Shown one piece after another: positions 42,474 through 64,000 of a stretch of 64,000 nucleotides of DNA; the first letter of the stretch is position 1; each line of letters begins with the position of its first letter. The DNA comes from Paenibacillus ihbetae (GTDB lineage: Bacteria > Bacillota > Bacilli > Paenibacillales > Paenibacillaceae). The stretch spans positions 1 through 64,000 of the forward strand of contig NZ_CP016809.1 of NCBI RefSeq assembly GCF_002741055.1. The letters are read 5' to 3'. The notes beneath the pieces were generated by a model. It did not search any database, had not been told where the DNA came from, and worked only from the letters and a program-made list of their open reading frames with translations. Position numbers and translations under genes: made by a program.

Positions 42474-43856
42474 TTACTTCAAATTGGCGGACCATTTCTC
42501 AGCGCGCGACTGAAGATCATCCAGGAATTTCTGGATATCCGGCGCGTTGCCGGAGGCCGCTTGGCTGATAAACCCGTTGATTGCCGGCGCGATGTCGCTC
42601 ATGTAGAACGGATTGGCTTCATCCATCAGCTCGGAATGGCCGACTTCTGCGATTTCAAGCGCCTTTTTCACATATTTGTCCTCCGGCGTAACAAAATCGG
42701 CGTTTTTCAAGGTTGGTGTACTGGAGAAGTTCTCGTATCGGTATTTCTGCGTCATATGACCGCTCAAGAATTTGAGCACTTCCCATGATGCCTCCACATC
42801 CTTGGCATTCTTCGCCATGACGAACGGATCGACCGCCACCCATCCTTCTCCGTCAGGCCCCATGTTCATCACGGGCTCGAAACGGTCCAGAAGCTCTTTG
42901 TTCTGCTTTGAGCGGTATTCGCTCATGGTGGATCCTCCGGTGGAATCGAGCGCAATCGCGATGTTGTTTTTCTCCAGACCGAAATTTTCAGCGCCCTGTG
43001 CATTCACGAAGCCTGCCGGCGGCAGCTTGGCAGCTTCCTTCAGCCATTCCAGCACCTTGACCATCTCCGGAGAATTCAGATGCCACTTGATGCTCTTAAC
43101 ATCCTTCAGCGTTCCTTCCGCTCCCTTGGCGCCGTACGCGAGGGTCAATGCGACAAAGGTGGAGCCGTTTAACGAGTTGCCGCTCCAGAAGAGGCCGTAA
43201 TTATCTTCGCCAGTCTTCGGATTTTTCCCGGTCATTTTCTTGGCCTTCTCGAGAATTTCATCGGGACCAGGCTTAGCCGAGAGCGGTTCAACACCCCAGT
43301 CTTCAAACAGCTTCTTATCGTAAATCGTCATTCTGCGGCCGAGAACGGCAGGAATGCCAAATTGCTTCGTTCCGTCCGGCGACTTGGTGCTGTACGAATT
43401 GTTCATGATTCCTTCCAGATAAATGCCTGGATCGAAGGAGGAATCATTGGCTATCAGATCATCCAGATCGCGCAGGAGTCCATCCTGATACCACTGGGAA
43501 GCGAACGCGCCGCCGGTATACAAGACATCGGCGTCACCGGATAAGAGCATGGCGGACTGCTTGGCTTTGACATTTTCCCACGGGATCTGGTACACCTCGA
43601 GCTTGATGTTCGGGTACATGATCTTGAACGTCTTATCCAGGTATTCATTGAGACCAATCACTGGATTGCCGGTCAGCGCGTCGATGCCATTCTCCAGCTG
43701 CCAGCCGGCGAGGGCGACCCGCACTGTTCCTTCCATGTCCGACACCTTTTCGATCTTGACGCCGCCCGTCACATCGGTATTCGAACCGCCTGAGCAAGCG
43801 GCCAGCGTAAACGCCAGCACGAAGGATAAGATGAGCAGCACAGCCTTCTTCAACAT
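42474..43856 (-). CDS. Sugar ABC transporter substrate-binding lipoprotein (importer 1)
   Basis: A 460-aa extracytoplasmic solute-binding protein, family 1 (CUT1). Signal peptide with lipobox FTLAAC (Cys21) followed by a SGGSNTD linker. The body contains YLDKTFKIMYPNIKLEVYQI, LSGDADVLYTGGAFASQWYQ and FVMAKNAKDVEASWEVLKFL, typical of maltodextrin/oligosaccharide-binding proteins. Last gene of a three-gene minus-strand operon behind its two permeases. No ATPase is encoded nearby; bacilli commonly use a shared MsmX-type ATPase (established knowledge). The ligand is unknown. Confidence 0.92.
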   Translation of the reverse strand: MLKKAVLLILSFVLAFTLAACSGGSNTDVTGGVKIEKVSDMEGTVRVALAGWQLENGIDALTGNPVIGLNEYLDKTFKIMYPNIKLEVYQIPWENVKAKQSAMLLSGDADVLYTGGAFASQWYQDGLLRDLDDLIANDSSFDPGIYLEGIMNNSYSTKSPDGTKQFGIPAVLGRRMTIYDKKLFEDWGVEPLSAKPGPDEILEKAKKMTGKNPKTGEDNYGLFWSGNSLNGSTFVALTLAYGAKGAEGTLKDVKSIKWHLNSPEMVKVLEWLKEAAKLPPAGFVNAQGAENFGLEKNNIAIALDSTGGSTMSEYRSKQNKELLDRFEPVMNMGPDGEGWVAVDPFVMAKNAKDVEASWEVLKFLSGHMTQKYRYENFSSTPTLKNADFVTPEDKYVKKALEIAEVGHSELMDEANPFYMSDIAPAINGFISQAASGNAPDIQKFLDDLQSRAEKWSANLK

Positions 43857-43895
43857 TTCATGACACCTCCGAATGAATAAGCTTTCCCTGTCGAG

Positions 43896-44765
43896 CTACT
43901 GCTTGATGCCGGACAGCGCGATACTCTCGATAATATAGCGCTGCAGGAACAGATAAACGGCGATAACCGGGATCAGACTGGCCGTCGTCGCTGCCATGAT
44001 GATGGATGGCTGCTGGTTGATGCCGTTATTGTAGGTAAACATCGCAAGGCCGATCTGAATGGTGTATTTGGCTGCCGATTTCAGAATGAGCAGAGGCCAC
44101 AGCATATCATTCCATACGCCAAGAAACAGCAGGATCACCATCGTGGCAATAATCGGCGTGCACAGCGGCAGATACACCCGGCCGAACACCGTGAATTCCT
44201 TGGCACCGTCCAGCACGGCCGCCTCCCTTAAGCTGCTGGGCAGCTGATCGAAGAATGCCTTCGCCAGGAACGTCCCGAACGCATAGTTCATCGCCGGCAA
44301 ATAAAAGGCGAGATAATTGTCAACGAGGCCGAGCTCGCTGAACAGCAGGTACTGCGGAATCATCGTCATTTCAAACGGGATCATCATGGTGCTCAGGGCA
44401 AGAAGCAGTACGATGTTCGCTCCCTTGAAACGGAGCTTGGATAAAGCATAACCGGACATTAGTGCCGATAGTGAGCTAATGAGAATGACGCCAGCACTGA
44501 CGAGCGCCGAATTGCCGATATAGAGAAACATTTTGATGTTCGTGAAAGCAACCTCATATGTTCGAATGGACGGCTCCTCCGGCCAGATTTTTGGCGGGAA
44601 CGTAATATTCAACCGCGCTGCCCAATCGAAGCTGGTAACGAGCATCCATAAGAACGGTACGATCATTATGAAGGAACCGGCGAACAGTACGATCGTCAGA
44701 ATCAATTGATTGATCGACAACCGTCTGCGGGGCACAGGCTCCTTAGAGACAGCTGTACCGGACAT
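43896..44765 (-). CDS. Carbohydrate ABC transporter permease, MalG-like (importer 1)
   Basis: A 289-aa permease with six helices. The EAA motif that docks the ATPase is LREAAVLDGAKEFTVFGRVY then LPLCTPIIATM. N-terminal helix LILTIVLFAGSFIMIVPFLW MLV is typical of the second CUT1 permease. GGAGGGAGAC precedes the ATG. Second gene of the operon, 43 bases after the first permease. Confidence 0.93.
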   Translation of the reverse strand: MSGTAVSKEPVPRRRLSINQLILTIVLFAGSFIMIVPFLWMLVTSFDWAARLNITFPPKIWPEEPSIRTYEVAFTNIKMFLYIGNSALVSAGVILISSLSALMSGYALSKLRFKGANIVLLLALSTMMIPFEMTMIPQYLLFSELGLVDNYLAFYLPAMNYAFGTFLAKAFFDQLPSSLREAAVLDGAKEFTVFGRVYLPLCTPIIATMVILLFLGVWNDMLWPLLILKSAAKYTIQIGLAMFTYNNGINQQPSIIMAATTASLIPVIAVYLFLQRYIIESIALSGIKQ

Positions 44766-44808
44766 GGTCTCCCTCCTGTCTTCATGATATGTTCACTGCT
44801 AGGCGGCA

Positions 44809-45759
44809 TTAATCTAGACTGTCCTTACGCCGGTTCAACAGCATGAGGCAGACTGTCAGAATGAGAATGATCAGGAATAACAGGTAGGATACCGCGGTGG
44901 CAAGCCCCATCTGGGAAGCCAGAAACGCATTCCGATAGATATACAGCACCACGGTCATCAAGCTTCCGCCCGGATTGCCGGCGGTCCCCCCGATTAACCA
45001 CACATCGGTAAACCGCTTCATCCCGCCGATCGTCCCCATAATGAGCATGAACACGAAGATCGGACGCAAATAAGGAATCGTAATGTACAGCCATTTCCGA
45101 TACGTACCCGCTCCATCCACCTCTGCCGCTTCGTACAGATCGCGCGGAACGCTTTGCAGTCCAGCTAGAAAAATAATGGTGTTATAGCCGAGCGCCCCCC
45201 AGAGACTCATAAGCACAATGCTGTACGGCGCCACTTGCGGATTCGTGAACCATCCGATGGGCTCTATGCCGAATAATCCGATGACAAAGTTGATCAGCCC
45301 TTCCTTGGACGGAAAGAACAGAAAAGAAAACAACAGCGTCGTGGCCACACCGGATACAACGTTCGGCAAGAAATAGACCGCTTTGAAAAAATTCCTTCCC
45401 AGGTTCCACTTCAGGTTGTTGATCAAGCTCGCCAGGATGAAAGAAAAAGCGATGCCGAGCACGACCGACCACAGTCCCATCAAGAACGTGTTCGAAAGCG
45501 CCTGCCAGAATATAGGATCCCCTAACGCGTACTTGTAGTTGTTCAACCCAACCCAAGTACCGGTCAGATTGAGCCCGGACGTCTGATGAAAGCTCATGAA
45601 CAGCGCGGCAAACATCGGGTAAATGGCGAACACCAGTACGCCAATGATCAACGGGGCACTGAACAAATACCCCATCCAATCATTGCGGGTAAACCGGAAT
45701 TTCCGCTTGGGCAGGCCTCCATGAACCGCAGGCCACTTCCCCTCCGGGGTGGATGACAC
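44809..45759 (-). CDS. Sugar ABC transporter permease, MalF-like (importer 1)
   Basis: A 316-aa permease with six helices and the EAA motif LYEAAEVDGAGTYRKWLYIT then IPYLRPIFVFM. MGYLFSAPLIIGVLVFAIYP is helix 1. I place the start at a GTG at 45759 because AAAGGAGG lies at a good distance; an ATG at 45780 overlaps that site. First gene of the operon, so its promoter should lie in 45760-46200. Confidence 0.92.
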   Translation of the reverse strand: MSSTPEGKWPAVHGGLPKRKFRFTRNDWMGYLFSAPLIIGVLVFAIYPMFAALFMSFHQTSGLNLTGTWVGLNNYKYALGDPIFWQALSNTFLMGLWSVVLGIAFSFILASLINNLKWNLGRNFFKAVYFLPNVVSGVATTLLFSFLFFPSKEGLINFVIGLFGIEPIGWFTNPQVAPYSIVLMSLWGALGYNTIIFLAGLQSVPRDLYEAAEVDGAGTYRKWLYITIPYLRPIFVFMLIMGTIGGMKRFTDVWLIGGTAGNPGGSLMTVVLYIYRNAFLASQMGLATAVSYLLFLIILILTVCLMLLNRRKDSLD

Positions 45760-46208
45760 AACCAATCCTCCTCCTTTCATATAATCGCCGGATCTACCGC
45801 CCGGCAGCCGGACAAGGATTTCCTGTCCATTCTGTACAAGGTTATGTGGTGGATTCCGGATTGATTCCGGATTGTGCTTGTTTCTTTTTTCCCCTTATAT
45901 CGACGCTCACGGGAAGACATCCTTATCGAACCATTGATAAATCTGCAGATTGCTGGAGGTTGGCGGTTTGTGGATCCCCGTTTTAATCGAATGGGCAGTT
46001 AGTTGTCCATCTTGATGTCATGTTCCGGAACAGAGATATAGTGATAGTGATAGAGATATAAAGAAAAAGAGATAGAGATACGGATAGAGATACGGATAGA
46101 GATAAGGATAGGGATACATATAACGGTATGAGATGTCTAAGATCTTTAGAGCTTGTCATTAAATAGTTTGACATATAATATATTATGTAAACTATTAACT
46201 TCAAAAAG
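45760..46208. other. Promoter region of importer 1 with a GATAGA-type simple repeat
   Basis: About 450 bases without a gene. A purine-rich array of GATAGA/GATACG units (GATAGAGATA repeated with variants) spans about 46033-46115. A 12-bp palindrome, ATAATATATTAT, is at 46175-46186, resembling the AT-rich palindromes of the neighbouring glycan operon. A TTTACA box on the minus strand overlaps it. Confidence 0.5.
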
Positions 46209-46238
46209 AGGACCTTATCGATTCAACGATAAGGTCCT
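46209..46238 (-). terminator. Terminator of the GH38-GH106 operon
   Basis: AGGACCTTATCG (46209-46220), loop ATTCAA, CGATAAGGTCCT (46227-46238): a perfect 12-bp stem. In the minus direction it is followed by CTTTTTG. It separates the long enzyme operon from importer 1. Confidence 0.85.
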
Positions 46239-46383: not shown

Positions 46384-49300
46384 CTAGGATGTCGAGGATG
46401 ACCCCGCGATCCGCCGCACCAGCTTGACTTGTCCAAGCACGCCAGAAGGCAGAGCCTTTTTGCCGTATAGATTTTCGAGCGTATTCGCGGCTTCAATGCG
46501 GAAGACGTTATCCCCTTGCTTTATATAAGAGGTGACGTTCCAGCTGTAGGGCGGCCACAGCCGTACGCCGGCATCGTGTTCGTTCACGTAGAGCCGCGCT
46601 GTCTCCCGAATATCCTCGGCCTCCAGCCAAATTTCTTCTTCCGTAGCCGGATCCATATCGGTAATCGACAGCTGCTGCGAGTAACCCCCGATTCCTGCGT
46701 AGTATGGATAACCGGCTTTGCACCAATCGCCTGACAGAAGCTCCGGCTGAACGGTTAAACGTTGACCATGGGCTGCAAAGGGGCCGATCAGAAAAGCCGG
46801 ATACGAAACAGCAGGCATGGGCTCCAGCAACGAAACCGTAAGCACCTCAAGCACATTCTCCCCCTCCGTAAGATGCGGAGTGATGTCGACTGCCGAGTAA
46901 TACGGATCTTGCCAGCGGGACGGGCGCAAGCTTTCCTGCCGAGCTCCATTGACGAAAATTTCGATATTTCGGCGGCGCTGCAGAAAACCGATATGGGACG
47001 GGATGCGCTGCTCTACATCGTCAAGGATCAGTTCGATTGACGGCTGGGTCGGCGATCGTGCAGAATCCAACATAGTCTGGCTTGGTTGTGCATTTGGCCC
47101 ACGTGCTTCCCGCAGCCAATCGATCAGCTCTGCAGATACGGTAAAGATCGTCCGGTACGTATTCACTTGCCCTGGCATCGTCGCATTCATCCGTGACTCG
47201 CGGTCATTCAGCGTGACCTGCCACCGGTCGAGCAGGAGCACGTTGGGTCCATGGCTTCGGAACAGCCAAGAGTCTCCAAGCGGCAGCTCGCCTGTTATCC
47301 TCAGATCGGGAGCGTGTTGCTCACCGGTTCGGTTATCGGTTTTAACATCGTTTCGGTCATCGGCCAAGTCCTCGCCCCGATCTGGCTGCAGCGAAATCAC
47401 ACGCAGCTCGCCAGGGGCGAAGCGCAGCTCCGCACTGTCGGTCATACGAGCAACGCCCCCGCTCTCCAGATCCCACTCATATCGTGCATTGCTGCGGGAG
47501 TCGCTGCTGCTTACCCGGACCGTTACGTCTTGATCCGACCAATTCAACAGCCATATAAAAGGCGTATCCTCCCGATATCGTTCCACCATGACGATATCCT
47601 CATGGGTCCCCATCGTCAAATCCAAGGACAAAATAGGCTGTCTTTTCAATATCGACCGAAGAAGCGAACAAACGTTCTCGAAACACCTTTCTTCAAGGTT
47701 CCGGTCACTTCCCGAACCAGCTGCCTCGTTAAGGTCCGCGCTGCCCAGGGCGAAATATGCCACAGCCCCTTTCCCGACATTGTTAACGACACCATGATGA
47801 GAAGCTCCGAACAAAGCGTCCATATGACGCATGACTTCAGGATCTTGCCGCTGGCATTCACTGTGCTGCGGGATTGCGCCTACTGCAATCAAGACTCCGC
47901 CTTCTGAAACAAAGGATACTAACCGTGCCGCAATTTCTCTCGACATCACTTCTAGTCCCGGCAGAATCAGTATCCGATACCCGTCCTCCTGTCCCGTAAA
48001 GCGAAATCCGCTACCTTGAACGATCTCCGCTTCGCGCAGCTGACACTCATCGACATAATCAAAATCCAACGAATGCCGAAGCAGACGATCCGACAGCAAA
48101 GAGAAGAACCGGTCGCATGCGGGATGCTTGTCCGATAGACCCGACACGAACATACGATCGTATACCGTGTGGATCGGTGACATTATGAGCATTTCAGGCC
48201 GTCTTCTCGTGCAAGCCCCAAGCAAGCTGAGACGTCCGATGTAATCAGCGAAGCTCCGATAATGCGGCCAATGCGGGGCATGATAAAATTCCGTCGGCGG
48301 AAAATCCGTCTTCCGATAGCCAACAAAGGAATAATAGAACGCATGCGGGATGAATAGATTGACGCCAAGAAAAGCCATAAAGTTCGCATCCAGCCGCCGC
48401 TGGCGCATGGAGTAGGCATGACCGCTTGCCCCGAAGGACTCGCATACGACCCGCTCCTTGCCTTCCAGCTGTGCTACGGATGCCGCCGTCTTCACGGACA
48501 CGATCCGATGCGGATGATCCTTGGTGCCTATACCCGACGTTAAATAATCTACGCCCGTATAATGAAACTGCTGCAGAACGCGGGTCTGATTGCCTTGGGA
48601 ACGGGCCTGTCCCCACACGGGCTCCTCCAAGGTATGGCCGATGTATAACAGGCCATGCCGCTCGCACCAGGTACGGATCGCCGCATGATAGCCGCCGACA
48701 TACCACCTGGTAATCGTCTCATAATATTGCTGCCGAAACGACCGGCTTCCGTCAGCCATGCCGTACAGCAATGCGCCCAAATGCGGAATCGGGTCGTACC
48801 CGTTCTCGTCCCGGAACCGTTCAACCATGCCATGCGACCAGGCAAACACCATGCCCGGCAGCGTTGCCTGCACGTTATGGACGTCCGTCCGGATCGCTTC
48901 GACGCCGAAGAAGCCGTCATGAATCATGAGTCCCGGCTCGTCGGTAAACACGCCTTGGATGGTCTTCCCGTACTGCCCTTTCAATCGCAGCAGCGGCTCA
49001 TACGATAACCGGATGAATGCTTGAACCGCTTCCGGATTCAGCGTATCGAGGTAGTAACCTTGCGCGAACGTCATTCCTTCCGCAATCTCGCAGGACCAGC
49101 ACGCAAGGATAACGTAGGGATCGTCCGTCTTGGGGACCCACTCCTGGTTCAGGAAGCCTGTAATATTCTCGGGATTGCTGCATAGCAGCCACTCCCCATC
49201 CCGCTGAATCGCGCGGTATGCCAGGATGGCGATAAGCGCTTGATGCTCGTAAGAGGCAAAATCGAGCTTCAACGAGGCTGCCGCCCCGCCTCCTGGAAGT

Positions 49301-49707
49301 CTTCGTTCTTCCACCCGAAGGTACCGCATGCGATATTCCGGATACTGCCGCGTCAGCTTGCCGCCGACCGTTCCGCTTGGCCAGTTATCCTCATCATAAA
49401 GCCACACCACCATGTTTCGTTTGCGGCACTCCTCCGTACTGAACTCCAGCGCATCCATGAACTCATCCGAAAGAAAGTCCGATTGCATCCCGTGCCGTGC
49501 ATGCAGCACGACTCCGCCGACACCCGCCTTATGCATGGCCTCAATCTGTTGCTCCAGCTCCGGCTTCTCCAGCCTGTGGTTGAGAAACCAGAAGGGTTGG
49601 GGGCGGAAAATGGGAGCGGGATTCCGAAACTGTGCTTCCAGTGAATCCTCTCCTAACGGTTGTCGCGACATATCCCGCAGGGCATCTTGTGTTTTGAACG
49701 TTTGCAT
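46384..49707 (-). CDS. GH106-like alpha-L-rhamnosidase / unassigned glycosyl hydrolase
   Basis: A 1107-aa enzyme without signal peptide. The N-terminal TIM-barrel reads QPFWFLNHRLEKPELEQQIE, then GVGGVVLHARHGMQSDFLSD and VVWLYDEDNWPSGTVGGKLT; these blocks characterise the GH106 family and its close uncharacterised relatives. GVFTDEPGLM (about 247-256) has a candidate catalytic Glu. A middle domain (LILPGLEVMSREIAARLVSF) resembles a GATase-like fold, and the C-terminal NRESRMNATMPGQ and IEIFVNGARQ region forms jelly-roll domains. GAGGTAACC lies upstream of the ATG. Last gene of the minus-strand enzyme operon, 5 bases after the DUF4965 gene. Rhamnosidase activity is probable, not certain. Confidence 0.68.
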   Translation of the reverse strand: MQTFKTQDALRDMSRQPLGEDSLEAQFRNPAPIFRPQPFWFLNHRLEKPELEQQIEAMHKAGVGGVVLHARHGMQSDFLSDEFMDALEFSTEECRKRNMVVWLYDEDNWPSGTVGGKLTRQYPEYRMRYLRVEERRLPGGGAAASLKLDFASYEHQALIAILAYRAIQRDGEWLLCSNPENITGFLNQEWVPKTDDPYVILACWSCEIAEGMTFAQGYYLDTLNPEAVQAFIRLSYEPLLRLKGQYGKTIQGVFTDEPGLMIHDGFFGVEAIRTDVHNVQATLPGMVFAWSHGMVERFRDENGYDPIPHLGALLYGMADGSRSFRQQYYETITRWYVGGYHAAIRTWCERHGLLYIGHTLEEPVWGQARSQGNQTRVLQQFHYTGVDYLTSGIGTKDHPHRIVSVKTAASVAQLEGKERVVCESFGASGHAYSMRQRRLDANFMAFLGVNLFIPHAFYYSFVGYRKTDFPPTEFYHAPHWPHYRSFADYIGRLSLLGACTRRRPEMLIMSPIHTVYDRMFVSGLSDKHPACDRFFSLLSDRLLRHSLDFDYVDECQLREAEIVQGSGFRFTGQEDGYRILILPGLEVMSREIAARLVSFVSEGGVLIAVGAIPQHSECQRQDPEVMRHMDALFGASHHGVVNNVGKGAVAYFALGSADLNEAAGSGSDRNLEERCFENVCSLLRSILKRQPILSLDLTMGTHEDIVMVERYREDTPFIWLLNWSDQDVTVRVSSSDSRSNARYEWDLESGGVARMTDSAELRFAPGELRVISLQPDRGEDLADDRNDVKTDNRTGEQHAPDLRITGELPLGDSWLFRSHGPNVLLLDRWQVTLNDRESRMNATMPGQVNTYRTIFTVSAELIDWLREARGPNAQPSQTMLDSARSPTQPSIELILDDVEQRIPSHIGFLQRRRNIEIFVNGARQESLRPSRWQDPYYSAVDITPHLTEGENVLEVLTVSLLEPMPAVSYPAFLIGPFAAHGQRLTVQPELLSGDWCKAGYPYYAGIGGYSQQLSITDMDPATEEEIWLEAEDIRETARLYVNEHDAGVRLWPPYSWNVTSYIKQGDNVFRIEAANTLENLYGKKALPSGVLGQVKLVRRIAGSSSTS

Positions 49708-49712
49708 GCCGG

Positions 49713-51749: not shown

Positions 51750-51899
51750 GTTCACTTCAGCTCCCTTTATTCCGATATTTTGACGGATACAACATGAACC
51801 CATCGAGCAGGAGATGCGAATTGCTGCGTAAATATTATCCTAACAGTTCTGCATGACATCCGAATTTCCTTTGAATGAAACGGTCTTTTATGCGAAAGA

Positions 51900-53674: not shown

Positions 53675-53757
53675 TCCAATCGCCTCCTGGAATATGGATA
53701 TCAACTTCGTGAGCCACTCTACGATGCATGCTTCTAATCACGAGCAGGAAACAAATC

Positions 53758-54666: not shown

Positions 54667-55590
54667 TTAGAACAGAGATACATCGCTGACTTTTCGGGCA
54701 ATCCGGTTCACCGTCAGGATCAGGATCAGTCCGATAATGCTCTGGAACAAGCCGACGGCAGCGGCATAGCTGAGCCGTCCTTCCCGGATCCCGGAGTTGA
54801 TGGCATGTACATCCAGTACGCTGCCTATGCTCGCGGTTGCAGGGCCATTCAATAGAAGGAGCTGCTCGTATCCGGCGCTCATCAGGTTTCCGACCGCCAG
54901 GATAAACAGAATGATCGCGACGTTTCGGATCCCAGGCAAGGTAATATGCCACATTTGGCGAAAGCGTCCGGCACCGTCCATTTTTGCGGCTTCATACAGC
55001 TGCTGGTCGATGCCCGCAATCGCAGCCATGAAGATAATGGAATTCCAGCCGATGTTCTTCCAAATATCGGAGCCGACAATCATTTGATAGAACCATGTCG
55101 GGTTGTTCAGGAATTGGATCGGATCGGCACCCAGCATTGACACCACATCATTTACCGGTCCGCCGTATGGCGTTAAAAGACGCTGCATTAGAGTCACCAC
55201 GACGATCCATGATACAAAGTAAGGCAGGTACGATAAGGTCTGGATCGTCTTCTTGAACCTGATCTTCCGCACCTCATTAAGTAGAAGGGCCAGGATGATC
55301 GGCATCGGAAATCCGATGAGCAGCTTCATCAGGCTGATAATGACCGTATTGCGAATGATGTCGCCGGATTGATAATAATTAAAAAATTGCTCGAAATATT
55401 TGAATCCGGCCCAAGGGCTTCCGGTGAAGCCCCCGATAAAGGTGTAATCCCGGAAAGCCACTTGAATTCCGTACAGCGGGACATAGGAAAATAGAAAAAA
55501 CCAGATGATGCCCGGCAGCATAAACAAGTAAAACAGCTTGTGCTGCCATATGCGTTTCCCTAATCGGCTGTTTTCCAGTCGATTTTTCAT
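54667..55590 (-). CDS. ABC transporter permease, LplB-like (importer 2)
   Basis: A 307-aa six-helix permease. HKLFYLFMLPGIIWFFLFSY then VPLYGIQVAFRDYTFIGGFT at the N-terminus is typical of LplB. The EAA motif is LYEAAKMDGAGRFRQMWHIT then LPGIRNVAIIL. AAAGGAGGTG precedes the ATG. First gene of the importer 2 set. The 368-base gap upstream, which includes a low-complexity stretch, separates it from the alpha-mannosidase gene. Confidence 0.94.
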   Translation of the reverse strand: MKNRLENSRLGKRIWQHKLFYLFMLPGIIWFFLFSYVPLYGIQVAFRDYTFIGGFTGSPWAGFKYFEQFFNYYQSGDIIRNTVIISLMKLLIGFPMPIILALLLNEVRKIRFKKTIQTLSYLPYFVSWIVVVTLMQRLLTPYGGPVNDVVSMLGADPIQFLNNPTWFYQMIVGSDIWKNIGWNSIIFMAAIAGIDQQLYEAAKMDGAGRFRQMWHITLPGIRNVAIILFILAVGNLMSAGYEQLLLLNGPATASIGSVLDVHAINSGIREGRLSYAAAVGLFQSIIGLILILTVNRIARKVSDVSLF

Positions 55591-55628
55591 CTTGTATACA
55601 CCTCCTTTCCCGTCTTGGGCCCTTGAAG

Positions 55629-55661: not shown

Positions 55662-55679
55662 CTACAGAGGGGCATGTAA

Positions 55680-55935: not shown

Positions 55936-55958
55936 AAGGCTGCTCGGGAATCTTGGCG

Positions 55959-58900
55959 TCATGATGCCTTTTCTGCCTTTAGTCGGAGCGTAATGATCTC
56001 GAACGGCGCTAAGGTAAGAGGAATTTGTCCGCCGTTCTCCAAATCCAGCCGGGCGAGCCTGCGTTCCAGCAGATCGGCTGTCCAAGCCTCCGCAGCCGCA
56101 AACCCGAGATGCAGCCTCGTCTGGATGCCGGAGCCTGAGATTTCGAAGAGGCGGACGATGATATCGTCCCCGTCCTCGGCTTTCTTGACGGACTCCACCA
56201 TCACATGCGGGTGGCTCACTCTCAGGAACGATGTTGTATCCCTCAGCCCATAGGACGCAGCCTGCGGATCGGGGGAAGCTTCCACGATATGGAGCGGGAT
56301 GTTCAGCTCATACCCTCTTTTGTACACCTCGGCCTGAACATGGTTGCCCAGATGCGGATACAACGAATAGGTGAACCGATGCTCGGCCAGGTCCGCATCC
56401 GGATCGGGATAGGAGCTGCTGCGCAGCAGATTCAGATCCAGCACATTCCCGTTGGCCCGGTGGCCGTACTTGCAGTCGTTCAGCAATGCAACGCCGTAAG
56501 CCGGCTCAGACATATCGATCCACTGGTGCGCGCAGATCTCGTCTTTGGCGAAGTCCCACATCGTATTGCGATGGGTGGGACGGCTGATGCTGCCGAATTG
56601 GATATCACACGTGACATGCTCCGATCTCACGTTCACCGGGAAGGAAGTCCGCAGCATTTTCCCCCGCTCCCTCCAATCGACAATTGTTTCAAAATCAATC
56701 CGGCGGCTCCCTTCCTCCAGCTTAACGGTCTGCGTCAGCTCGGATTCGCCGAAACGATAGCGAAAGATCCATCCGGTTATCGGCCCGTTGTCATAAGCCT
56801 GCACATCCTTTAGCGATATCGGCTGTCCGGCAGTAGCGGCATAATCATGGCGGAAATCCCAGGCGTCGCCTTCATCTTCATACACTTGCAGCCGATTGCC
56901 GGCCTTCCCCGGGGGGATAACCTCGCGCCCCGCCTCTTTATCCATAACCGAACGGATGGTGCCGTCCGGGAGAAACGTGACGATCAGCTTATCGTTCTCC
57001 AGCGTTCGTTCATCGGCGGATGTCCGGACGGCTTCTTCATATCCGGCCGCGAATTGCATAGCGGCAGCGCGGGAGTCCCCAGGGCTCGCCTCTGCCTTTT
57101 CGCCAGCATCAGGCTGAATTGTGACGGTAGTATAGCCCATGGCCGGAACCTGTACCTTTTGCCAATGTCCATGGATCTCGACCCATTGTTCCCGCTTCCA
57201 TGGGAGTGAATTAAAGACAACAGCCCGGCATGCTTCACCTCTTGCGGCGATCCGATCGGCCAGCCCGGCATACGCTTCCCGGATCATGGCTTCCGTCTGC
57301 CTGAGCAGCACCTCATACCGCTGCAGAGACTCATCATATACGCGCTTGATGGATGAGCCGGGGAGGATGTCATGGAACTGGTACAGGAGCACTTCCTTCC
57401 AGATCGCCTCCAGCGTTTCAGCAGGGTACGCCTTGCCCGTCTCGGTGCATGCAAGAACCGAAGCGAATTCCAGCTCCCGCAGCGCCTTTTCCATCTTCCG
57501 GTTATACCGCTTGCTGCGCGCCTGGCTCGTTAACGTCCCTTGATGCTTCTCCAGATACAGCTCCCCCCGCCAAGTCTGAAGCCTTCCTCTCTCTTCATGC
57601 AGCCGTTCGAAGAATCGCCAGGAAGGCTCCTGAATGACCGGTGAAAGGCCCAGCAGATTCTTCTCCCGATCCAGCCGTTCGAGATGCTCTTCTCCCGGAC
57701 CGCCCCCGCCGTCGCCAATGCCGAACAGCATCAGGGCATGGCCGGATACGTTCTTGTCGAGATATTCCCGTTCTATCTTGGCGATGGACCGGGGAGCGGC
57801 CGGGCTATTGTACGTATCCTCCGGCGGCATATGCATCAACACCCTCGATCCGTCGATGCCCTCCCATAAGAAGGAATGGTGCGGATGGCGGTTATATTCG
57901 CTCCAGGACAGCTTCTGGGTCATCATGTACTCGACGCCGGCTTTGCGAAGCAGCTGCGGCAGGCTTGCTGTATAACCGAACACATCAGGCATCCACAGCG
58001 ATTTCATCTCCAGCCCGAATTCCTGCATAAAATATCGTTTGCCGTACAGAAGCTGCCGAACGAGCGATTCGCCTCCCGGCACATTGGTGTCGGATTCGAC
58101 CCACATGGCTCCTTGTGGCTCCCATCGGCCTTCGCTGACTTTCAACTTAATCTGTTCGTACAGCTTCGGATAATGCTGCTTCATCCATTCGTACAGCTGC
58201 GGCTGGCTGGCGCCGAACACGTAATCGGGATACCGCTCAAGCATGCGGAGCGCCGTGGAGAAGGTTCTGGCTCCCTTGCGGATCGTTTCACGGATCGGCC
58301 ACAGCCAAGCCAGGTCGATATGCGCATGCCCGACGGCGCTGATCGTCAGCACCGAATCCCCCCCGCGCAGCATCAGCTGTTCTTCGAGAAGACGACGCGC
58401 ATGCTGAATGCGCTCCGGCGTCATCAAGGAAAGCTGCAATGATGCATCATACAGCGCTTGGAGAATCCGTTCCCTGCGTGCGCTGCCGCTCGGTAGATGC
58501 TCCGCGGTTTCCAGCAGCACTTCGGTGTCGTAATACAAGCTCCGTACCTCTTCATGGCAGATGGCAAGGAGCGCTTCCTTGACCGTACCGCCCCGATATT
58601 TTCCGAACAGGTCGTTATTGCCGGCATCGGCCCACACTTCGATCTGATCGCCTTGAACGAACGTCTCTCCGAGTTCGACAACCCGTTTGCCCGGAAGGCC
58701 GAGCGTGAAATCAAATTCCGAGTTGACGGTGGTCAATCCTTGATAAGGCGATCCTTCCCGGTCTACCAGGCAGAGCTCCCCGTTTACGTCAATCAGAAGC
58801 ACGAGCTTCTCCTTCGCTTCGAATGTCCGGGACGGAATCCGGCCCGTAAATCGGAACCAGGCACAATCCCACAGCTCACCCCAACGTTCTCCGCGCGCCA

Positions 58901-59057
58901 GCTTCATCGGCCTCCCCGTCATTCGCTCCTCATAACGTACAGGCTCCGCTGTCGCCCAAGCTGTGATTTCCAATTCTGCAACCGGCTCATAGATAGCTTC
59001 CCGGAGCTTGTTTAGCACGTGCTTTAACCGCTCCAGCCTTATCGGTTCGTATGGCAT
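55959..59057 (-). CDS. Alpha-mannosidase, glycoside hydrolase family 38
   Basis: A 1032-aa cytosolic retaining zinc mannosidase at normal family length. The metal-binding HxD is in AVGHAHIDLAWLWPIRET (His246, Asp248), and the nucleophile Asp358 is in LWMPDVFGYTASLPQLLRKA. RWEPQGAMWVESDTNVPGGE and LMHMPPEDTYNS are also conserved. The C-terminal half is the usual beta-sandwich. The ATG at 59057 follows GAGAGGAGAAG. It lies 30 bases downstream of the unassigned TIM-barrel gene in the same operon and would trim alpha-mannose from the imported oligosaccharide. Confidence 0.95.
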   Translation of the reverse strand: MPYEPIRLERLKHVLNKLREAIYEPVAELEITAWATAEPVRYEERMTGRPMKLARGERWGELWDCAWFRFTGRIPSRTFEAKEKLVLLIDVNGELCLVDREGSPYQGLTTVNSEFDFTLGLPGKRVVELGETFVQGDQIEVWADAGNNDLFGKYRGGTVKEALLAICHEEVRSLYYDTEVLLETAEHLPSGSARRERILQALYDASLQLSLMTPERIQHARRLLEEQLMLRGGDSVLTISAVGHAHIDLAWLWPIRETIRKGARTFSTALRMLERYPDYVFGASQPQLYEWMKQHYPKLYEQIKLKVSEGRWEPQGAMWVESDTNVPGGESLVRQLLYGKRYFMQEFGLEMKSLWMPDVFGYTASLPQLLRKAGVEYMMTQKLSWSEYNRHPHHSFLWEGIDGSRVLMHMPPEDTYNSPAAPRSIAKIEREYLDKNVSGHALMLFGIGDGGGGPGEEHLERLDREKNLLGLSPVIQEPSWRFFERLHEERGRLQTWRGELYLEKHQGTLTSQARSKRYNRKMEKALRELEFASVLACTETGKAYPAETLEAIWKEVLLYQFHDILPGSSIKRVYDESLQRYEVLLRQTEAMIREAYAGLADRIAARGEACRAVVFNSLPWKREQWVEIHGHWQKVQVPAMGYTTVTIQPDAGEKAEASPGDSRAAAMQFAAGYEEAVRTSADERTLENDKLIVTFLPDGTIRSVMDKEAGREVIPPGKAGNRLQVYEDEGDAWDFRHDYAATAGQPISLKDVQAYDNGPITGWIFRYRFGESELTQTVKLEEGSRRIDFETIVDWRERGKMLRTSFPVNVRSEHVTCDIQFGSISRPTHRNTMWDFAKDEICAHQWIDMSEPAYGVALLNDCKYGHRANGNVLDLNLLRSSSYPDPDADLAEHRFTYSLYPHLGNHVQAEVYKRGYELNIPLHIVEASPDPQAASYGLRDTTSFLRVSHPHVMVESVKKAEDGDDIIVRLFEISGSGIQTRLHLGFAAAEAWTADLLERRLARLDLENGGQIPLTLAPFEIITLRLKAEKAS

Positions 59058-59087
59058 GCTCCCACTTCTCCTCTCTGATCTGCAGCG

Positions 59088-61310
59088 TCATTGGCTTGTG
59101 CCCTGCTCTTGCGCCTCCCAATTAACCTGAATCTCGGAGCGGTTTCCCTTGCCGTGCTCGTAACGCAGGAGCACGGTTCGCGTGGCCGAATCCCATTCCC
59201 AGGCAACGGAAGCCGTCCTGTCTTGCGTTGCAGACACTGGTTTGACCGGGCAGTATATTCTGGCGGTCGCCTTCAATTTGGCCGGCCCCCGAGCAATAAA
59301 GCGAAAACCGCTGGACATCCGGGTCAGATCTTCCACTCGGGAGGAAGCGGAGATGACAGCAACTCCGTCTTCGGACGGCCGTCCGGCTTCCACATCATAT
59401 AGCAGGGCTTGCTGACCCGGATTCAGGCGGACCTCTGTCAGAACGCCGAGCTGAGGATCGAATACGTCGACCACCGGCCCCCGGATCACGAGCGGATCAG
59501 AGCTGATGGATTCCTCCAGTACGGCAGCAACCCAGTAAGGGCCCCGTCTAATCTTGTAGTAATGTTTCGGCTTCCAATCGGATCCATCCCCCGATAGCAG
59601 CGTAATCGCCTTCTGGACGGACTGGCGAAGCATACCCGCACCGGTTTTACTCCGGGCTAGGCTGGAGGGGTTCTTCTGCAGCCACCCGAACACTCCTTTT
59701 CCCATCTGCCTGATGTCTTCACCCGACTCCAATTGCCCTGAATCAACCAGTCCCAGCTGTTCAAACAGATGTTCACGTGGAGAACCGTAGGTGCGCCCAT
59801 AATCACCACCATCATTCCACCAATGCCAGATGCGGTGATATGGATCGGAATCGTCCCCAACATAGATCAGAGCCCCTCCTTCCTGAACCCACTGGGCGAT
59901 TGCATGGTGGATATCCGGATATTCCGGTTTCATGAATTCGTAGCTCAGCACTAGCACCCGATATGGCGCCAAATACTCCGGATATCGCCTTACGTTGTCC
60001 AGCTGTACCGGCCGAACCGGTATACCATGCTTCAGCAGCGGGAGCGCGAGGCCGTAGAAGGGGGAAAAATCGAGCAGCTCGGTATCCCCTTCCTGCTGAA
60101 AGCCATCGGGATCCGTACCGTCATATTTTCCGGCATCCGGTGCCCCTTCCTCCGGTCTCATACGCTGGAACATCGCTGAATCCGCAATCAGAACGCCGAC
60201 TTGAAGCGGCTCTCCCTCGGTCTCATTCACCTCGTGCGCCATATTTCCAAGCGTGTGCATGACATTGAGAAGTGTGGTCGCGTACGTCGGCGGGATCGAT
60301 TCTTTGCCGGACCCGTCTTCGGCGGGATAGATCCCTTTAAAGATTCTCCGCGGCCACGGAGCAACCTCATAATGAGAAATGCCGGGATGCAGCAGCGAGG
60401 CGGTTACAGTCTTCAAATAGTTCTGTTTATAATCCGCCCAAGTATGGTTCGGGTTATCTTCGATCGGATCGTGCAGGAACCACATTCTTCGGTCCGTTCC
60501 CCTTACGAGCTCCTGCATCATGCCATACTCCAGGTAAGCGGTTTCAAACGTACGTTCCTTTCGCACCCCTTCATACACGTTCGGCGTTCGGGAAGTTCCG
60601 GTCCAGATTTGAGCGATATAACCATCAACGGCCGGGAGCTCGATTAACCGAGATTGCGGACTGACGATCCGCCACTGCGTGTAGTTGATCAGGCTGTGCG
60701 TCGGAACATAGAAGCGAAGCACGCGGCCATATCGCTTCAATGCGTATTCCTTCATCTCGCCGCATAATCGGTCCAGCATCCGCGTATATAAGAATGCTTT
60801 CAATTTGGAGGCCCGGAATTGCGCATCGGCGGAAGTATGCGGCGGGATCCACGGCTCCTTGTAATACAGCTGCCACTCCCGCTTAAATGCCTCCGAGTAC
60901 CCCCCATTCACCCAAAATTCCGGCTCCTCTAGATGAATCGCCTCCACACCGGCGTCCACGGCGATACGGATACGCTCCGCAAGATACCGGCCAAAAGATA
61001 TGGTCGGCACCATATAAGGAATAACGGGCTTCGTCCCGTGGAGGATCATCTTTCCGCTGCGATCCGTCTGGGCTTCATCCCAATGAGGTTCGCCGTCCAC
61101 CTCGCCGTCCAGATATCTGTTGTAATCCCCCCAAGCCACTCCTGTCATCAGGTGTACGATATAACCCTGCTCTTTCCACTGCCTGATTCGCTCCGGCATC
61201 GTATCGTCAATACCGTATACCATGACAAAGTCCGTCTGCAGATCATAATCGGGATGATACGGCGCTGATTCTTGAAATCCGGTACGTTCTTGCGATCGGT
61301 CTCTCTGCAC
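59088..61310 (-). CDS. Unassigned glycoside-hydrolase-like TIM-barrel protein
   Basis: A 740-aa protein I cannot place in a named family. Residues about 25-370 look like a (beta/alpha)8 barrel: VYGIDDTMPERIRQWKEQGY, VEAIHLEEPEFWVNGGYSEA with two Glu in a strand-end position typical of clan GH-A acid/base sites, and YVPTHSLINYTQWRIVSPQS. A Rossmann-like GATase domain follows (VLVLSYEFMKPEYPDIHHAI, GGALIYVGDDSDPYHRIWHW), as in GH42, and then a beta-rich end. No signal peptide. The start is uncertain: AGGAGG at 61320-61325 lies 9 bases before GTG 61310 and only 3 before ATG 61316. First gene of the enzyme operon, so it probably acts on the same glycan. Confidence 0.7.
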   Translation of the reverse strand: MQRDRSQERTGFQESAPYHPDYDLQTDFVMVYGIDDTMPERIRQWKEQGYIVHLMTGVAWGDYNRYLDGEVDGEPHWDEAQTDRSGKMILHGTKPVIPYMVPTISFGRYLAERIRIAVDAGVEAIHLEEPEFWVNGGYSEAFKREWQLYYKEPWIPPHTSADAQFRASKLKAFLYTRMLDRLCGEMKEYALKRYGRVLRFYVPTHSLINYTQWRIVSPQSRLIELPAVDGYIAQIWTGTSRTPNVYEGVRKERTFETAYLEYGMMQELVRGTDRRMWFLHDPIEDNPNHTWADYKQNYLKTVTASLLHPGISHYEVAPWPRRIFKGIYPAEDGSGKESIPPTYATTLLNVMHTLGNMAHEVNETEGEPLQVGVLIADSAMFQRMRPEEGAPDAGKYDGTDPDGFQQEGDTELLDFSPFYGLALPLLKHGIPVRPVQLDNVRRYPEYLAPYRVLVLSYEFMKPEYPDIHHAIAQWVQEGGALIYVGDDSDPYHRIWHWWNDGGDYGRTYGSPREHLFEQLGLVDSGQLESGEDIRQMGKGVFGWLQKNPSSLARSKTGAGMLRQSVQKAITLLSGDGSDWKPKHYYKIRRGPYWVAAVLEESISSDPLVIRGPVVDVFDPQLGVLTEVRLNPGQQALLYDVEAGRPSEDGVAVISASSRVEDLTRMSSGFRFIARGPAKLKATARIYCPVKPVSATQDRTASVAWEWDSATRTVLLRYEHGKGNRSEIQVNWEAQEQGTSQ

Positions 61311-61390
61311 GAGCATTTCCCTCCTCGCCATTCTAATAGTCCGCTTATCGTCTTAGATCAAAACTTCGTTTACATCTTTTTCTAGAATAT

Positions 61391-61411
61391 AATATATAAT
61401 ATAAATATATT
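61391..61411. promoter_or_regulatory. AT-rich inverted repeat upstream of the enzyme operon
   Basis: AATATAT (61391-61397) and ATATATT (61405-61411) flank AATATAA. The 13-mer AATATATAATATA here is repeated exactly at 62789-62801 before the regulator gene. Candidate operator of the GntR-LacI regulator; AT-richness makes chance matches possible. Confidence 0.45.
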
Positions 61412-61542
61412 CAATATGTTTTTGTTGAATAATCTTTCATGTTCTCAAAGTCAACGGCTATATTCTGTCGGTTCAAGGTCTATTCAATTAGTCTTCATGC
61501 CTTATCTGGTTTACGCAGAACATGTCGCCGCAAGAAAACGAA

Positions 61543-61575
61543 AAAAATGCCTCCCCCCCTTATATTGGGAGAAGG
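61543..61575 (-). terminator. Terminator of the regulator gene
   Basis: Read on the minus strand: GCCTTCTCCC, loop AATATAA, GGGGGGGAGGC, then ATTTTTTTCG. It ends the regulator transcript before the enzyme operon. Confidence 0.75.
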
Positions 61576-61602
61576 CTTTCTTTCTATCCGGGCTGCGTTC
61601 GG

Positions 61603-62751
61603 CTACGTACGCGGAACAGGGCCCGAGGTTTGCCGGACGACAAGCTCGGGCTCGATGAGCATTTTGCTGTAGTGCTTTACTTCTTCGCGGTTGCGGACCA
61701 CATCGAGCAGTTTCATAGCCGCCCGATAGCCCATATCCCGCTCGAACTGTTTCACATGCGTGAATATGCTGAACTCATCCACGATGGACGTGGGATCGTC
61801 AAAGCTTACGATCGATACATCCTCAGGCACCCGAAGGCCTGCCTGCCGGGCCATCTGGTAAATTTGCACACCCAGTCTTCCGTTCAGCGAAATATACGCG
61901 GTAACCATCCGGTTCCGGATATACCGGTAAAGCGGGTGGGCCTCGGCGTCTTTCAGCACGCTGAGCGGCTTGAAATCAGTGATCATATGCGCCGGATTAA
62001 TCAGCGCGCCCTTGTTCTTCAAAGCATCGATATACCCTTCTATGCGCTCCTGGACTGTAACCGTTTGAAGCGGCGAATCCGAGCAGATCGCGATATCGCG
62101 ATGACCGAGCTCCCATAAATGCTCCACGGCAAGCTGTGTTCCCTTCCGGCCATCCGCGGCGATATAGTGGGTTTCCACCCCTGGCAGGTACCGGTCGATC
62201 AGAACGAACGGGAAACCCGCCAGCTTCATCCCAAGGATTTCCTCGTTGTAATTTTCCTCATCGATCGGGAAAATCAGCAGCCCCTCGGCCCCGAGCGACT
62301 TCAGCTCTTTGATCGCTTCCTGTTCTTTGTCCAGCTTGCCGTGGGTCAATATGATCATGCTGCGGTATCCTTCATTCATCAATGCGCGCTCGATCCCTTC
62401 GACGAGCCGAATCGCAAAATAATCATGGATGCTGGGCATAATGACGCCGATTAAGCCCGCAGCCTCCGAAATCCCGTTTAACCTCGCCGCCGGTTCCCCG
62501 GCAGACGGCGCGAGGACCGCATCTGCTTCCTTGGCTACAAAGCTTCCCTTGCCCGGTACCCTTGAGATAATCTTCTCGTTTGCTAAGCCGGTCAAAGCAT
62601 TGGCTACCGTAATTTTGCTGACCCGAAACTGATCCATCAGCTCCTTCTCGGTCGGAATGCGGTCTCCGGGCTTCATATTTTCGGTTGCGATGACCTGTTT
62701 AATGTAATCCTGGATTTGCTGGTATAGCGGAATACGATCGTTTACACTCAT
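61603..62751 (-). CDS. GntR-type HTH with LacI-type sugar-binding domain (AraR-like regulator)
   Basis: A 382-aa hybrid repressor. The N-terminal GntR winged helix is IPLYQQIQDYIKQVIATENM then PTEKELMDQFRVSKITVANA (about 5-75). The rest is a periplasmic-binding-protein-like effector domain as in LacI: LIGVIMPSIHDYFAIRLVEG, FPFVLIDRYLPGVETHYIAA, LGHRDIAICSDS and VSIVSFDDPTSIVDEFSIFT. This domain order is that of AraR. I use the ATG at 62751 (MSVNDRIPLY); a GTG at 62760 is possible. It is encoded upstream of the enzyme operon and is divergent from the GxGYxYP gene, so it probably represses both. Confidence 0.92.
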   Translation of the reverse strand: MSVNDRIPLYQQIQDYIKQVIATENMKPGDRIPTEKELMDQFRVSKITVANALTGLANEKIISRVPGKGSFVAKEADAVLAPSAGEPAARLNGISEAAGLIGVIMPSIHDYFAIRLVEGIERALMNEGYRSMIILTHGKLDKEQEAIKELKSLGAEGLLIFPIDEENYNEEILGMKLAGFPFVLIDRYLPGVETHYIAADGRKGTQLAVEHLWELGHRDIAICSDSPLQTVTVQERIEGYIDALKNKGALINPAHMITDFKPLSVLKDAEAHPLYRYIRNRMVTAYISLNGRLGVQIYQMARQAGLRVPEDVSIVSFDDPTSIVDEFSIFTHVKQFERDMGYRAAMKLLDVVRNREEVKHYSKMLIEPELVVRQTSGPVPRT

Positions 62752-62788
62752 TCTAATCACATCACCAATTCATTCATGATATTTGTAA

Positions 62789-62802: not shown

Positions 62803-62939
62803 TTACACAACCATGCGCAATAAACAAGCGTTTGTCGAGCGCCCCATCCTTATCGCAGCCATAATAATCACCGAATTCAGTGGCTAATCCGCAAGAATTT
62901 CAGGAAGTTTTGTCGAACCTCTTGTAAAAATATTGTTGT

Positions 62940-62954
62940 ATATATTAAATATAT
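62940..62954. promoter_or_regulatory. AT-rich perfect palindrome upstream of the GxGYxYP gene
   Basis: ATATATT-A-AATATAT, preceded by TTGT and followed by GTTG. It lies about 115 bases before the secreted-protein start and has the same AATATAT half-site as 61391. Confidence 0.45.
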
Positions 62955-63067
62955 GTTGGGTGGTGATGTGTCAAAATACATGGAGAGCTAATGGCAAAGG
63001 AGGGATATGATGACGATCCGACACACGCACTCTGATCCCCAAAAATGAATGACAAGGAGTGAAACCT

Positions 63068-64000
63068 ATGGCCCGTAAATTCTCGATTATTTGTCTAGCG
63101 ATTATTTGCTCATTCACCCTAACATCCGGATTCGCATTCGCATCGGAATCCAAAGTGCAGGCAGCCAAACCGGGAATCACGAAACATCGCGAGCTTCCAA
63201 GCTTCAAGAAACCAAAGCATTTGGACGCTGCCGATATTTACGATGCTCCGGGAGACGTGAAGCTGCTGCTAGGAACACTTCAAGGACTTGTAAACCGTGA
63301 GCTTCCCCGAATTTATTTGCTTGAGTCCGATGAGGAAGGGAAAACGACCTGGCTCAAAGATCTGGCAGTGCCTTATACGCTCCACGAGAACTACTGGGAG
63401 ATATTCGATCGTTATCGCAGCGAGGCAGCCGGCTTGATCGTTTATGATCCTGACGTTCCGGATACCATCAATGTGGCCACAACGCTCGCCGGACTCAAGG
63501 ATGCTGTCGTTGCTAGTCCGGAGCTGGCCGAGAAATTGTCCGCCGCACCATACCATATGAATATTCTTGAGGATCTGCGAGGCAAATTCAACAGCCGGAT
63601 CGAGGCCTATAACTGGCAGTATGAGCATCTGTGGGATCAAACGACGCATCAGATGCTAGTGGGATTAGCGCCCGATACAGCGATCCGCATCCCTCCAGGT
63701 CTCCCTGAATCCTTCGTTACGATTGCCGAGGAGAATGAGCAGATCCGTGACGCAAGCAATCGGGATGTATACAGCCTGAACCTTACCCCCCTGCTCGGTA
63801 AATCGGCGGTTTATCTCCGCTTCGACGACGCCTTTCCGCAGGACGGCTGGGGCCCGGCCATTCACGAAGTGACGGTGAAGGCAGACGGGCAGACGATCGC
63901 CAGCTTCATTGCTGGCAGTTCCGAAGAAGAATCCTACCTCTATGATCGGCAAAACTCAAAGTTTTTGGAAGGTCAAGGCGGACATCGCTTTGCCGATAAC
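63068..64000 (+). CDS. Secreted GxGYxYP-type carbohydrate-active protein, partial (runs off right edge)
   Basis: 311 codons are visible. An N-terminal signal peptide (ARKFSIICLAIICSFTLTSG then FAFASES) indicates export. The mature start, HLDAADIYDAPGDVKLLLGT then LQGLVNRELPRIYLLES, and ADGLIVYDPD-like AAGLIVYDPDVPDTINVATT, match the N-terminal domain of GxGYxYP putative glycoside hydrolases. A second segment from about 240 (RDVYSLNLTPLLGKSAVYLR) looks like a beta-sandwich insertion. AAGGAG precedes the ATG. The signature G-x-G-Y-x-Y-P itself would lie beyond the window. Divergent from the regulator, it may be the extracellular step of the glycan pathway. Confidence 0.72.
   Translation, partial: MARKFSIICLAIICSFTLTSGFAFASESKVQAAKPGITKHRELPSFKKPKHLDAADIYDAPGDVKLLLGTLQGLVNRELPRIYLLESDEEGKTTWLKDLAVPYTLHENYWEIFDRYRSEAAGLIVYDPDVPDTINVATTLAGLKDAVVASPELAEKLSAAPYHMNILEDLRGKFNSRIEAYNWQYEHLWDQTTHQMLVGLAPDTAIRIPPGLPESFVTIAEENEQIRDASNRDVYSLNLTPLLGKSAVYLRFDDAFPQDGWGPAIHEVTVKADGQTIASFIAGSSEEESYLYDRQNSKFLEGQGGHRFADN

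Follow-up and report, generated by a model that had tools for sequence, protein, structure and literature searches.

GxGYxYP proteins such as BT2193 (PDB 3sgg), BT3857 and BT3859 belong to a family of putative hydrolases for which a catalytic triad of Glu272, Asp331 and Asp333 has been predicted, and the genes for BT3857 and BT3859 sit in an alpha-mannan-responsive locus (PMC4071793; papers given here by PMC number are cited from excerpts). A Streptomyces homologue of GtaA showed no glutaminase and weak beta-galactosidase activity (PMC9668830). In glycoside hydrolase family (GH) 106, the general base is conserved in RHA-P, and Ram106B enzymes have an Asp-Glu pair and do not match the general acid E461 of BT0986 (PMC6828813). 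Paenibacillus taichungensis I5 carries a Gram-positive xanthan locus that encodes GH38, two binding proteins and enzymes lacking signal peptides (PMC12827396). Here we analysed the first 64 kb of the single-contig 6.59-Mb genome of Paenibacillus ihbetae (NZ_CP016809.1; this stretch of 64,000 nucleotides is called the window), at whose end relatives of these proteins are encoded together with a protein that we call TIM.

We conclude that the locus is real and conserved and probably serves the use of alpha-mannan-type glycans; one of its enzyme families is new to the searched libraries, and two are of unsettled activity. At a probability of roughly 0.7 we read it as the means by which a Gram-positive bacterium uses alpha-mannan-type glycans, of which decorated mannans or O-glycans from the cell walls of fungi are the likeliest. 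A degradative enzyme, a transporter and a regulator are encoded together, which is how a Gram-positive polysaccharide utilisation locus is defined (PMC12827396). The core is best read as positions 46384-62760 together with the divergent GxGYxYP gene, which starts at 63059 and runs past the window end to genome position 65122:

46384..49707, minus strand: GH106-like protein (PF17132, 59.6 bits, cut-off 29)
49713..51803, minus strand: GtaA-type protein (DUF4964-DUF5127-DUF4965; PF16334, PF17168 and PF16335, all three domains present)
52013..53704, minus strand: solute-binding lipoprotein of importer 2 (PF01547), with a lipobox-like LLIGC close to the N-terminus
53758..54654, minus strand: permease G of importer 2 (PF00528)
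54667..55590, minus strand: permease F of importer 2 (PF00528)
55959..59057, minus strand: GH38 alpha-mannosidase of the Ams1/bifidobacterial type, without a signal peptide by eye (PF01074, PF09261, PF07748, PF17677)
59088..61331, minus strand: TIM, 747 amino acids, candidate new glycoside hydrolase, without a signal peptide by eye
61603..62760, minus strand: GntR/LacI hybrid regulator with a GntR helix-turn-helix and a LacI-type sugar-binding domain (PF00392, PF13377)
63059..64000, plus strand: secreted GxGYxYP protein, 687 amino acids, ending at genome position 65122 (PF14323, PF20957, PF20958, PF16216)

On the minus strand, the order from 62760 downward is thus regulator, TIM, GH38, importer 2, GtaA, GH106-like and then a second importer, importer 1. 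Pfam confirmed the GH38, GH106-like, DUF4965, GntR-LacI and divergent secreted GxGYxYP genes that an earlier note, made from the letters alone, had named.

The P. ihbetae GxGYxYP protein has the same domains as BT2193, BT3857 and BT3859, and two of the three proposed catalytic acids are identical; it differs in having E467 in place of Asp331 and in lying in a Gram-positive locus with an ATP-binding cassette (ABC) importer, beside TIM and GtaA (PMC4071793). The GtaA protein shares its domain set with the Streptomyces homologue (PMC9668830) and is linked to TIM and GH38. Like the Ram106B subgroup, the GH106-like protein keeps the general base (E423) and has Asp-Glu where BT0986 has Asp-Ser (PMC6828813), although its sequence is far removed from those of the GH106 enzymes with solved structures. 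The I5 xanthan locus has GH9, polysaccharide lyase family (PL) 8, GH88 and GH92, whereas ours has none of these (PMC12827396). The earlier note knew of no described locus with exactly this set. This held in our literature searches (GxGYxYP, DUF4965/5127/4964, Paenibacillus GH38, glutaminase A/GH92, N-glycan loci, GH106, rhamnomannan, Firmicutes alpha-mannan), which gave no paper with this gene set and no described bacterial locus for rhamnomannan utilisation among the titles, abstract openings and passages listed, most subscription journals lying outside; the I5 xanthan paper (PMC12827396) was not among the matches for GxGYxYP or DUF4965/5127/4964.

Conservation of the gene set

The gene-neighbourhood comparison that the earlier note had proposed showed that the set is co-conserved in relatives, beyond a chance neighbourhood. 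We counted neighbours up to 10 kb away to either side of TIM in 46 TIM-encoding loci from genome contigs. GH38 is present in 29 of them, GtaA in 30, GxGYxYP in 22, GntR in 27, the binding protein of importer 2 (SBP2) in 20 and the GH106-like gene in 12. GH38 and GtaA occur together in 27 loci, and all of GH38, GtaA and GxGYxYP in 21. The gene order of P. ihbetae is repeated, for example, in L002-L004, L007-L010 and L014. A second arrangement (L020, L023-L025, L029) reads GxGYxYP-GntR-another importer-GH38-TIM-GtaA, and in L043 and L045 GH92 and GtaA adjoin TIM. No match to GH38, GtaA or GxGYxYP was found next to TIM in the Clostridia metagenome-assembled genome (MAG) loci L028, L030-L032, L034-L038 and L040, of which L035 is short; L034 carries one GH28-like gene.

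We also compared 100 genomes of the genus, P. ihbetae included, at E<=1e-100 for TIM and GH38 and 1e-60 for the others. TIM was found in 23 genomes, GtaA in 16, GxGYxYP in 21, the GH106-like protein in 12 and GH38 in 82. All 16 genomes with GtaA have TIM (hypergeometric p 1.8e-13), as do 20 of the 21 with GxGYxYP (p 6.7e-17) and 11 of the 12 with the GH106-like protein; these p values ignore relatedness. The binding protein of importer 1 (SBP1) likewise falls within the TIM set in 18 of its 21 genomes (p 1.2e-12), which indicates that the counts partly reflect relatedness, so that linkage matters more. TIM lies within 12 kb of GtaA in 12 genomes, within 5 kb of GH38 in 13 and within 5 kb of GxGYxYP in nine. 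One genome (G010) has kept GxGYxYP, GntR, GH38, importer 2 and the GH106-like gene and has neither TIM nor GtaA at these thresholds. Four stretches (in G012, G016, G021 and G067) combine TIM with importer 2 genes and lack both GH38 and GtaA; GntR is present in three of the four. In G057, TIM adjoins GH125 and GH38 genes.

The genes could be chance neighbours between spore-germination operons, with no common pathway. GerA-type operons do flank both sides, and importer 1 resembles an unrelated neighbour; the conserved neighbourhoods, the joint absence, the shared operator-like box and the fusions described below make this reading extremely improbable.

TIM, its fusions and the partner enzymes

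TIM has no match in Pfam, NCBIfam or the PDB. The P. ihbetae protein (P0001) matched no Pfam family up to E 10, 37 TIM members gave scattered weak Pfam matches only, and a profile search of the PDB returned nothing usable (best E 0.87 and 1.8). The family is large, with 6767 homologues among 7997 candidates scored; the protein in L002 is 90% identical to that of P. ihbetae. Residues E135, E136, D288, D292 and E322 are the same in all 65 diverse members compared, and the N-terminal domain carries conserved EEPE and DPxED motifs. Residues ~431-489 resemble the trimerisation-type domain of GH42 (hhalign 56%, reversed control 1.0%), and the middle part also resembles that of GH106-like proteins (74.5%, reversed control 0.3%). 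TIM is thus like the GH42 beta-galactosidases in its middle and unlike their catalytic domain in its N-terminal part (residues 1-375), which none of the four families tried matched. Membership in GH42 was rejected, as Pfam gave no GH42 match and the N-terminal part reached 0.3% against the GH42 catalytic domain (hhalign). Some TIM homologues carry GH42 in their source names.

The earlier note had called TIM an unassigned TIM-barrel protein. It is indeed unassigned in the libraries searched, while the barrel is not backed by any sequence match; a barrel glycosidase is a reasonable inference. We tentatively suggest that TIM represents a new GH family with an N-terminal catalytic domain and a GH42-like middle. 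Together with GtaA and GxGYxYP it might cleave a linkage of decorated alpha-mannan beyond those handled by GH76, GH92, GH125 and GH38, and with a Ram106B-type rhamnosidase the set might dismantle fungal rhamnomannan in this clade.

The repeated joins of TIM to alpha-mannan enzymes, GtaA and GxGYxYP are the strongest evidence for a common pathway. A GH92-TIM protein is present at L045, and we searched with its TIM part against proteins of 0.55 to 1.75 times its length. The search gave 153 matches, and partners were counted by reading 120 of them. Among these listed matches, the most frequent partner is GH76, with 16 clean cases in both orders; GH92 and GtaA (P0324 included) are each joined to TIM in five proteins, four and three of which, respectively, have an essentially full-length TIM, and GxGYxYP in two, both with an essentially full-length TIM. 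TIM could be located in 118 newly listed proteins and is full length both after GH76 (P0250) and before it (P0256). Rescanning the partner domains of eight fusion proteins confirmed seven; the N-terminal part of the eighth, P0322, had no Pfam match. P0322, P0325, P0330 and P0331 are ~1200 amino acids long, each with ~520 amino acids ahead of a C-terminal TIM. Three proteins with GH76 among several overlapping barrel hits (P0262, P0263, P0278) were left out of the GH76 count, and the remaining listed proteins, with no Pfam domain or one of doubtful relevance (such as PF03372, PF22244, PF04450 or PF00144), were left uncounted. P0329 (TIM and GH38) and P0324 (TIM and GtaA) were rejected as real fusions; TIM is shortened at the join, as if a deletion or an assembly error had brought neighbouring genes together.

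To follow the joins we used a tree of 87 TIM domains (32 fused, 37 of alignment A1 and 18 labelled unfused), from which P0253 (GH92) and P0268 (GtaA) were excluded for their shortened TIM. The tree is one quick run with long branches flagged; some rows labelled unfused, such as P0322, bear an N-terminal part of uncertain kind, and TIM-GH29, GH43-TIM and sulfatase-TIM are represented by one protein each. Parsimony of the fusion labels required 11 changes, with GH76 fusions in three places, and the starred branches force at least six changes of the unfused label. If label changes are read as gains, this amounts to about ten joins, gains and losses not being separable with certainty.

All four GH38 Pfam domains (N, middle, C) scored above the cut-off in the GH38 protein, whose closest PDB entries are 7vqo and 7ufr. 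HxD and WxPDxFG are the motifs of the zinc ligands and the catalytic Asp in GH38; they are intact here as GHAHID at 243 and WMPDVFGY at 355, which align with GHAHID and WLPDSFGY of 7ufr. That the closest relatives of this protein are Ams1 and bifidobacterial GH38 enzymes, and that TIM has GH38, GH125 and GH92 as partners, all three of them N-glycan enzymes as well, would also suit another substrate. High-mannose N-glycans would then be released by an endoglycosidase from elsewhere and imported by importer 2, GH38 would remove the alpha-mannoses, and TIM or GtaA would cleave the beta-linked core. We consider this quite unlikely, given that no GH18, GH85 or GH20 domain was found in the locus proteins and that the commonest TIM partner among the matches listed is GH76, an endo-alpha-1,6-mannanase family.

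The GtaA protein has no signal peptide by eye, and a PDB search with it gave no match. PF16335, formerly DUF4965, is now named GtaA_6_Hairpin. By analogy with the Streptomyces homologue, the protein is probably a glycosidase rather than a glutaminase.

In a profile search of the PDB, the GH106-like protein matched 6q2f (9.3e-22) and 5mqm. By hand count its E423 aligns with E644 of RHA-P, which we take to be the general base there, at the general base position (E593 in BT0986). At the position of the general acid (E461 in BT0986) the protein is not aligned, and FTDEP at 254 provides an Asp-Glu pair. It is possibly a Ram106B-type alpha-L-rhamnosidase.

The GxGYxYP protein, whose signal peptide was recognised by eye, matched 3sgg at 3.4e-32, and its N and C domains are covered by the four Pfam domains. 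By hand count on the published chain numbering (PMC4071793), E411 corresponds to Glu272 and D469 to Asp333, and E467 replaces Asp331.

Operator-like boxes, transcripts and importers

The GntR/LacI hybrid is, from its domains, a probable repressor of the locus. A box, ACATATTRAATATATT, was derived from the aligned upstream regions of the P. ihbetae locus and 14 of the 46 loci. It occurs twice at the locus:

61404..61419, minus strand: operator-like box ACATATTGAATATATT upstream of the TIM operon, the only perfect match to the pattern in the 6.59-Mb genome
62940..62955, plus strand: second operator-like box, between GntR and GxGYxYP, with 2 mismatches

Before TIM, the box is found within 2 mismatches in all 15 upstream regions. 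Before GxGYxYP, 10 of 13 upstream regions have it with 0-1 mismatch and 12 of 13 with up to 2. In control searches of the upstream regions, the reversed pattern gave no hit and pair-shuffled sequences at most 0.5%. Genome-wide, 21 sites match the box with at most 2 mismatches, compared with five for the reversed pattern. Two of these sites, at 5.1386 and 5.1403 Mb, precede a GntR paralogue and the importer of a paralogous unit. This paralogue, at 5.139 Mb, is 63% identical to the regulator with a closely similar helix-turn-helix, and the importer proteins are 50, 52 and 32% identical to those of importer 2. The sites played no part in building the motif and support the box as an operator for regulators of this type. 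In G016 and G067, units that are 87-94% identical to the paralogous one have a GH38 gene between regulator and importer; P. ihbetae (L135, 5.133-5.146 Mb) is without it, and its unit adjoins a GFO_IDH_MocA gene.

Terminator-like sites numbered 26 against 16.7 expected from shuffles, and thus only the strongest stems were used:

61549..61576, minus strand: terminator-like hairpin behind the regulator gene, 10-pair stem and T run, consensus match only
46209..46238, minus strand: terminator-like hairpin at the end of the core operon, behind the GH106-like gene, 12-pair stem, consensus match only

TIM probably starts its own transcript behind the first of these hairpins, and with the two stems the core operon would span TIM to the GH106-like gene. 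A 7-pair terminator-like stem lies behind importer 1, at 42383-42367.

As the earlier note had seen, the region holds two CUT1-type importers without an ATPase, each with a binding lipoprotein and two permeases (52013-55590 and 42474-45780). Of 150 scored ABC_tran matches (from 269 first-look candidates), none lies within 42474-65122, and Pfam scans of 12 locus genes showed no ATPase domain. A MalK-type ATPase is encoded elsewhere; five ATPases of similar length from this genome were scanned, and L110 (4.08 Mb) has OB_MalK and TOBE, L112 TOBE. Importer 1 consists of three genes:

42474..43856, minus strand: solute-binding lipoprotein of importer 1 (PF01547), neighbour
43896..44765, minus strand: permease G of importer 1 (PF00528), neighbour
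44809..45780, minus strand: permease F of importer 1 (PF00528), neighbour

The two importers had been taken as one system, a view that we do not follow. None of seven upstream regions of importer 1 has the box; the best site in the whole 603-bp gap has 4 mismatches, and an AT-rich palindrome-like stretch near 46180 was rejected as a box on the same ground. Twenty other genomes of the genus encode the importer 1 binding protein at 83-99% identity, and three of them (G007, G061, G096) lack TIM. Because of the terminator-like stem at 46238-46209, the missing box and the three TIM-free genomes among 21, importer 1 was set apart from the core. In G011 AP_endonuc_2 and GFO_IDH_MocA genes come after it (L053; L054 is alike by gene size), a further reason for rejecting it as a core member. 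It is probably not part of the core and is best regarded as a separate neighbour, which may have a looser link through its co-occurrence with TIM.

On the flanks, two GerA-type spore-germination operons lie in tandem at 33913-42361 and one at L001:2777-6570. A few kb past the locus, L001:8596-15475 encodes a third set of binding protein and permeases, an AP_endonuc_2 protein and an AraC-type regulator with a Cache-like domain. A gene for a PreP-type M16C peptidase adjoins one for malate:quinone oxidoreductase at 30664-33762.

Substrate and working model

The earlier note had proposed import and dismantling of a heteroglycan with mannose and rhamnose. As a glycan utilisation locus it stands, with conserved neighbourhoods (27/46), co-occurrence and a shared box. 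Mannose in the substrate is well supported, since TIM is fused or adjacent to GH76, GH92, GH125 and GH38. Rhamnose is plausible only, a single weaker lead that comes from the distant GH106-like protein, found in 12 genomes compared with 23 for TIM. In fungal peptidorhamnomannan, alpha-rhamnose is carried on alpha-mannose chains with an alpha-1,6-mannose core (PMC4196476), and a fungal rhamnomannan would explain both sugars.

The note had named plant, fungal or bacterial surface polysaccharides, and a plant or bacterial heteroglycan, such as a gum, an exopolysaccharide or an O-antigen, is kept as a rival. The rhamnosidase features of the GH106-like protein are in line with this, as are a GH78-type rhamnosidase near TIM and GtaA in L047 and the fusions of TIM to GH29, GH43 and sulfatase. 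The locus proteins, however, include no lyase, GH88 or pectin enzyme, in contrast to the Paenibacillus xanthan locus (PMC12827396), and the GH106-like protein is present in 12 of the 100 genomes compared with 23 for TIM; we regard such a substrate as somewhat unlikely.

Several observations weigh against an alpha-mannan-type locus with this gene set. Among the matches listed, five fusions join TIM to GH29 and one each to GH43 and sulfatase, so its partner is not always a mannosidase. The locus itself has no GH76, and the activity found for the sole tested GtaA homologue is a weak beta-galactosidase (PMC9668830). In 14 of the 46 loci, of which 10 come from Clostridia MAGs and one (L035) spans only 3.5 kb, TIM is accompanied by neither GH38 nor GtaA, and TIM is not within 5 kb of GH38 in 10 of the 23 genus genomes that have it. 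GH38 is so widespread (82 of 100 genomes) that finding it is little evidence by itself. From the class of G101, 294 further genomes were drawn, and none has TIM at E<=1e-100. In L005 the GxGYxYP gene lies elsewhere in the locus and is not preceded by a box (6 mismatches). The TIM and GxGYxYP promoters served to define the box, which leaves the paralogous locus and the missing box at importer 1 as its only independent evidence; since it overlaps promoter-like hexamers, part of its conservation may be that of a promoter.

For the favoured alpha-mannan-type substrate, the following course is proposed. The secreted GxGYxYP protein would open or trim the polymer outside the cell. Importer 2, presumably powered by an MsmX/MalK-type ATPase encoded elsewhere, would take in the oligosaccharides. 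In the cytoplasm, to judge from their families, TIM and GtaA may take off side groups or cleave particular linkages, while the GH106-like protein would release terminal rhamnose and GH38 would strip alpha-mannose. The GntR/LacI regulator would hold both divergent transcripts at the ACATATTRAATATATT-like boxes until an oligosaccharide binds.

TIM, GtaA/DUF4965 and GxGYxYP are three families of unsettled function that are tied here to one pathway: their gene neighbourhoods are conserved, an operator-like box is common to the two transcripts, TIM and GtaA are absent together, and fusions recur. For GxGYxYP, a putative hydrolase since 2014, and for DUF4965, the question of function becomes a direct one, whether these proteins act on alpha-mannan oligosaccharides. 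This would also hint at how soil bacteria feed on fungal cell walls.

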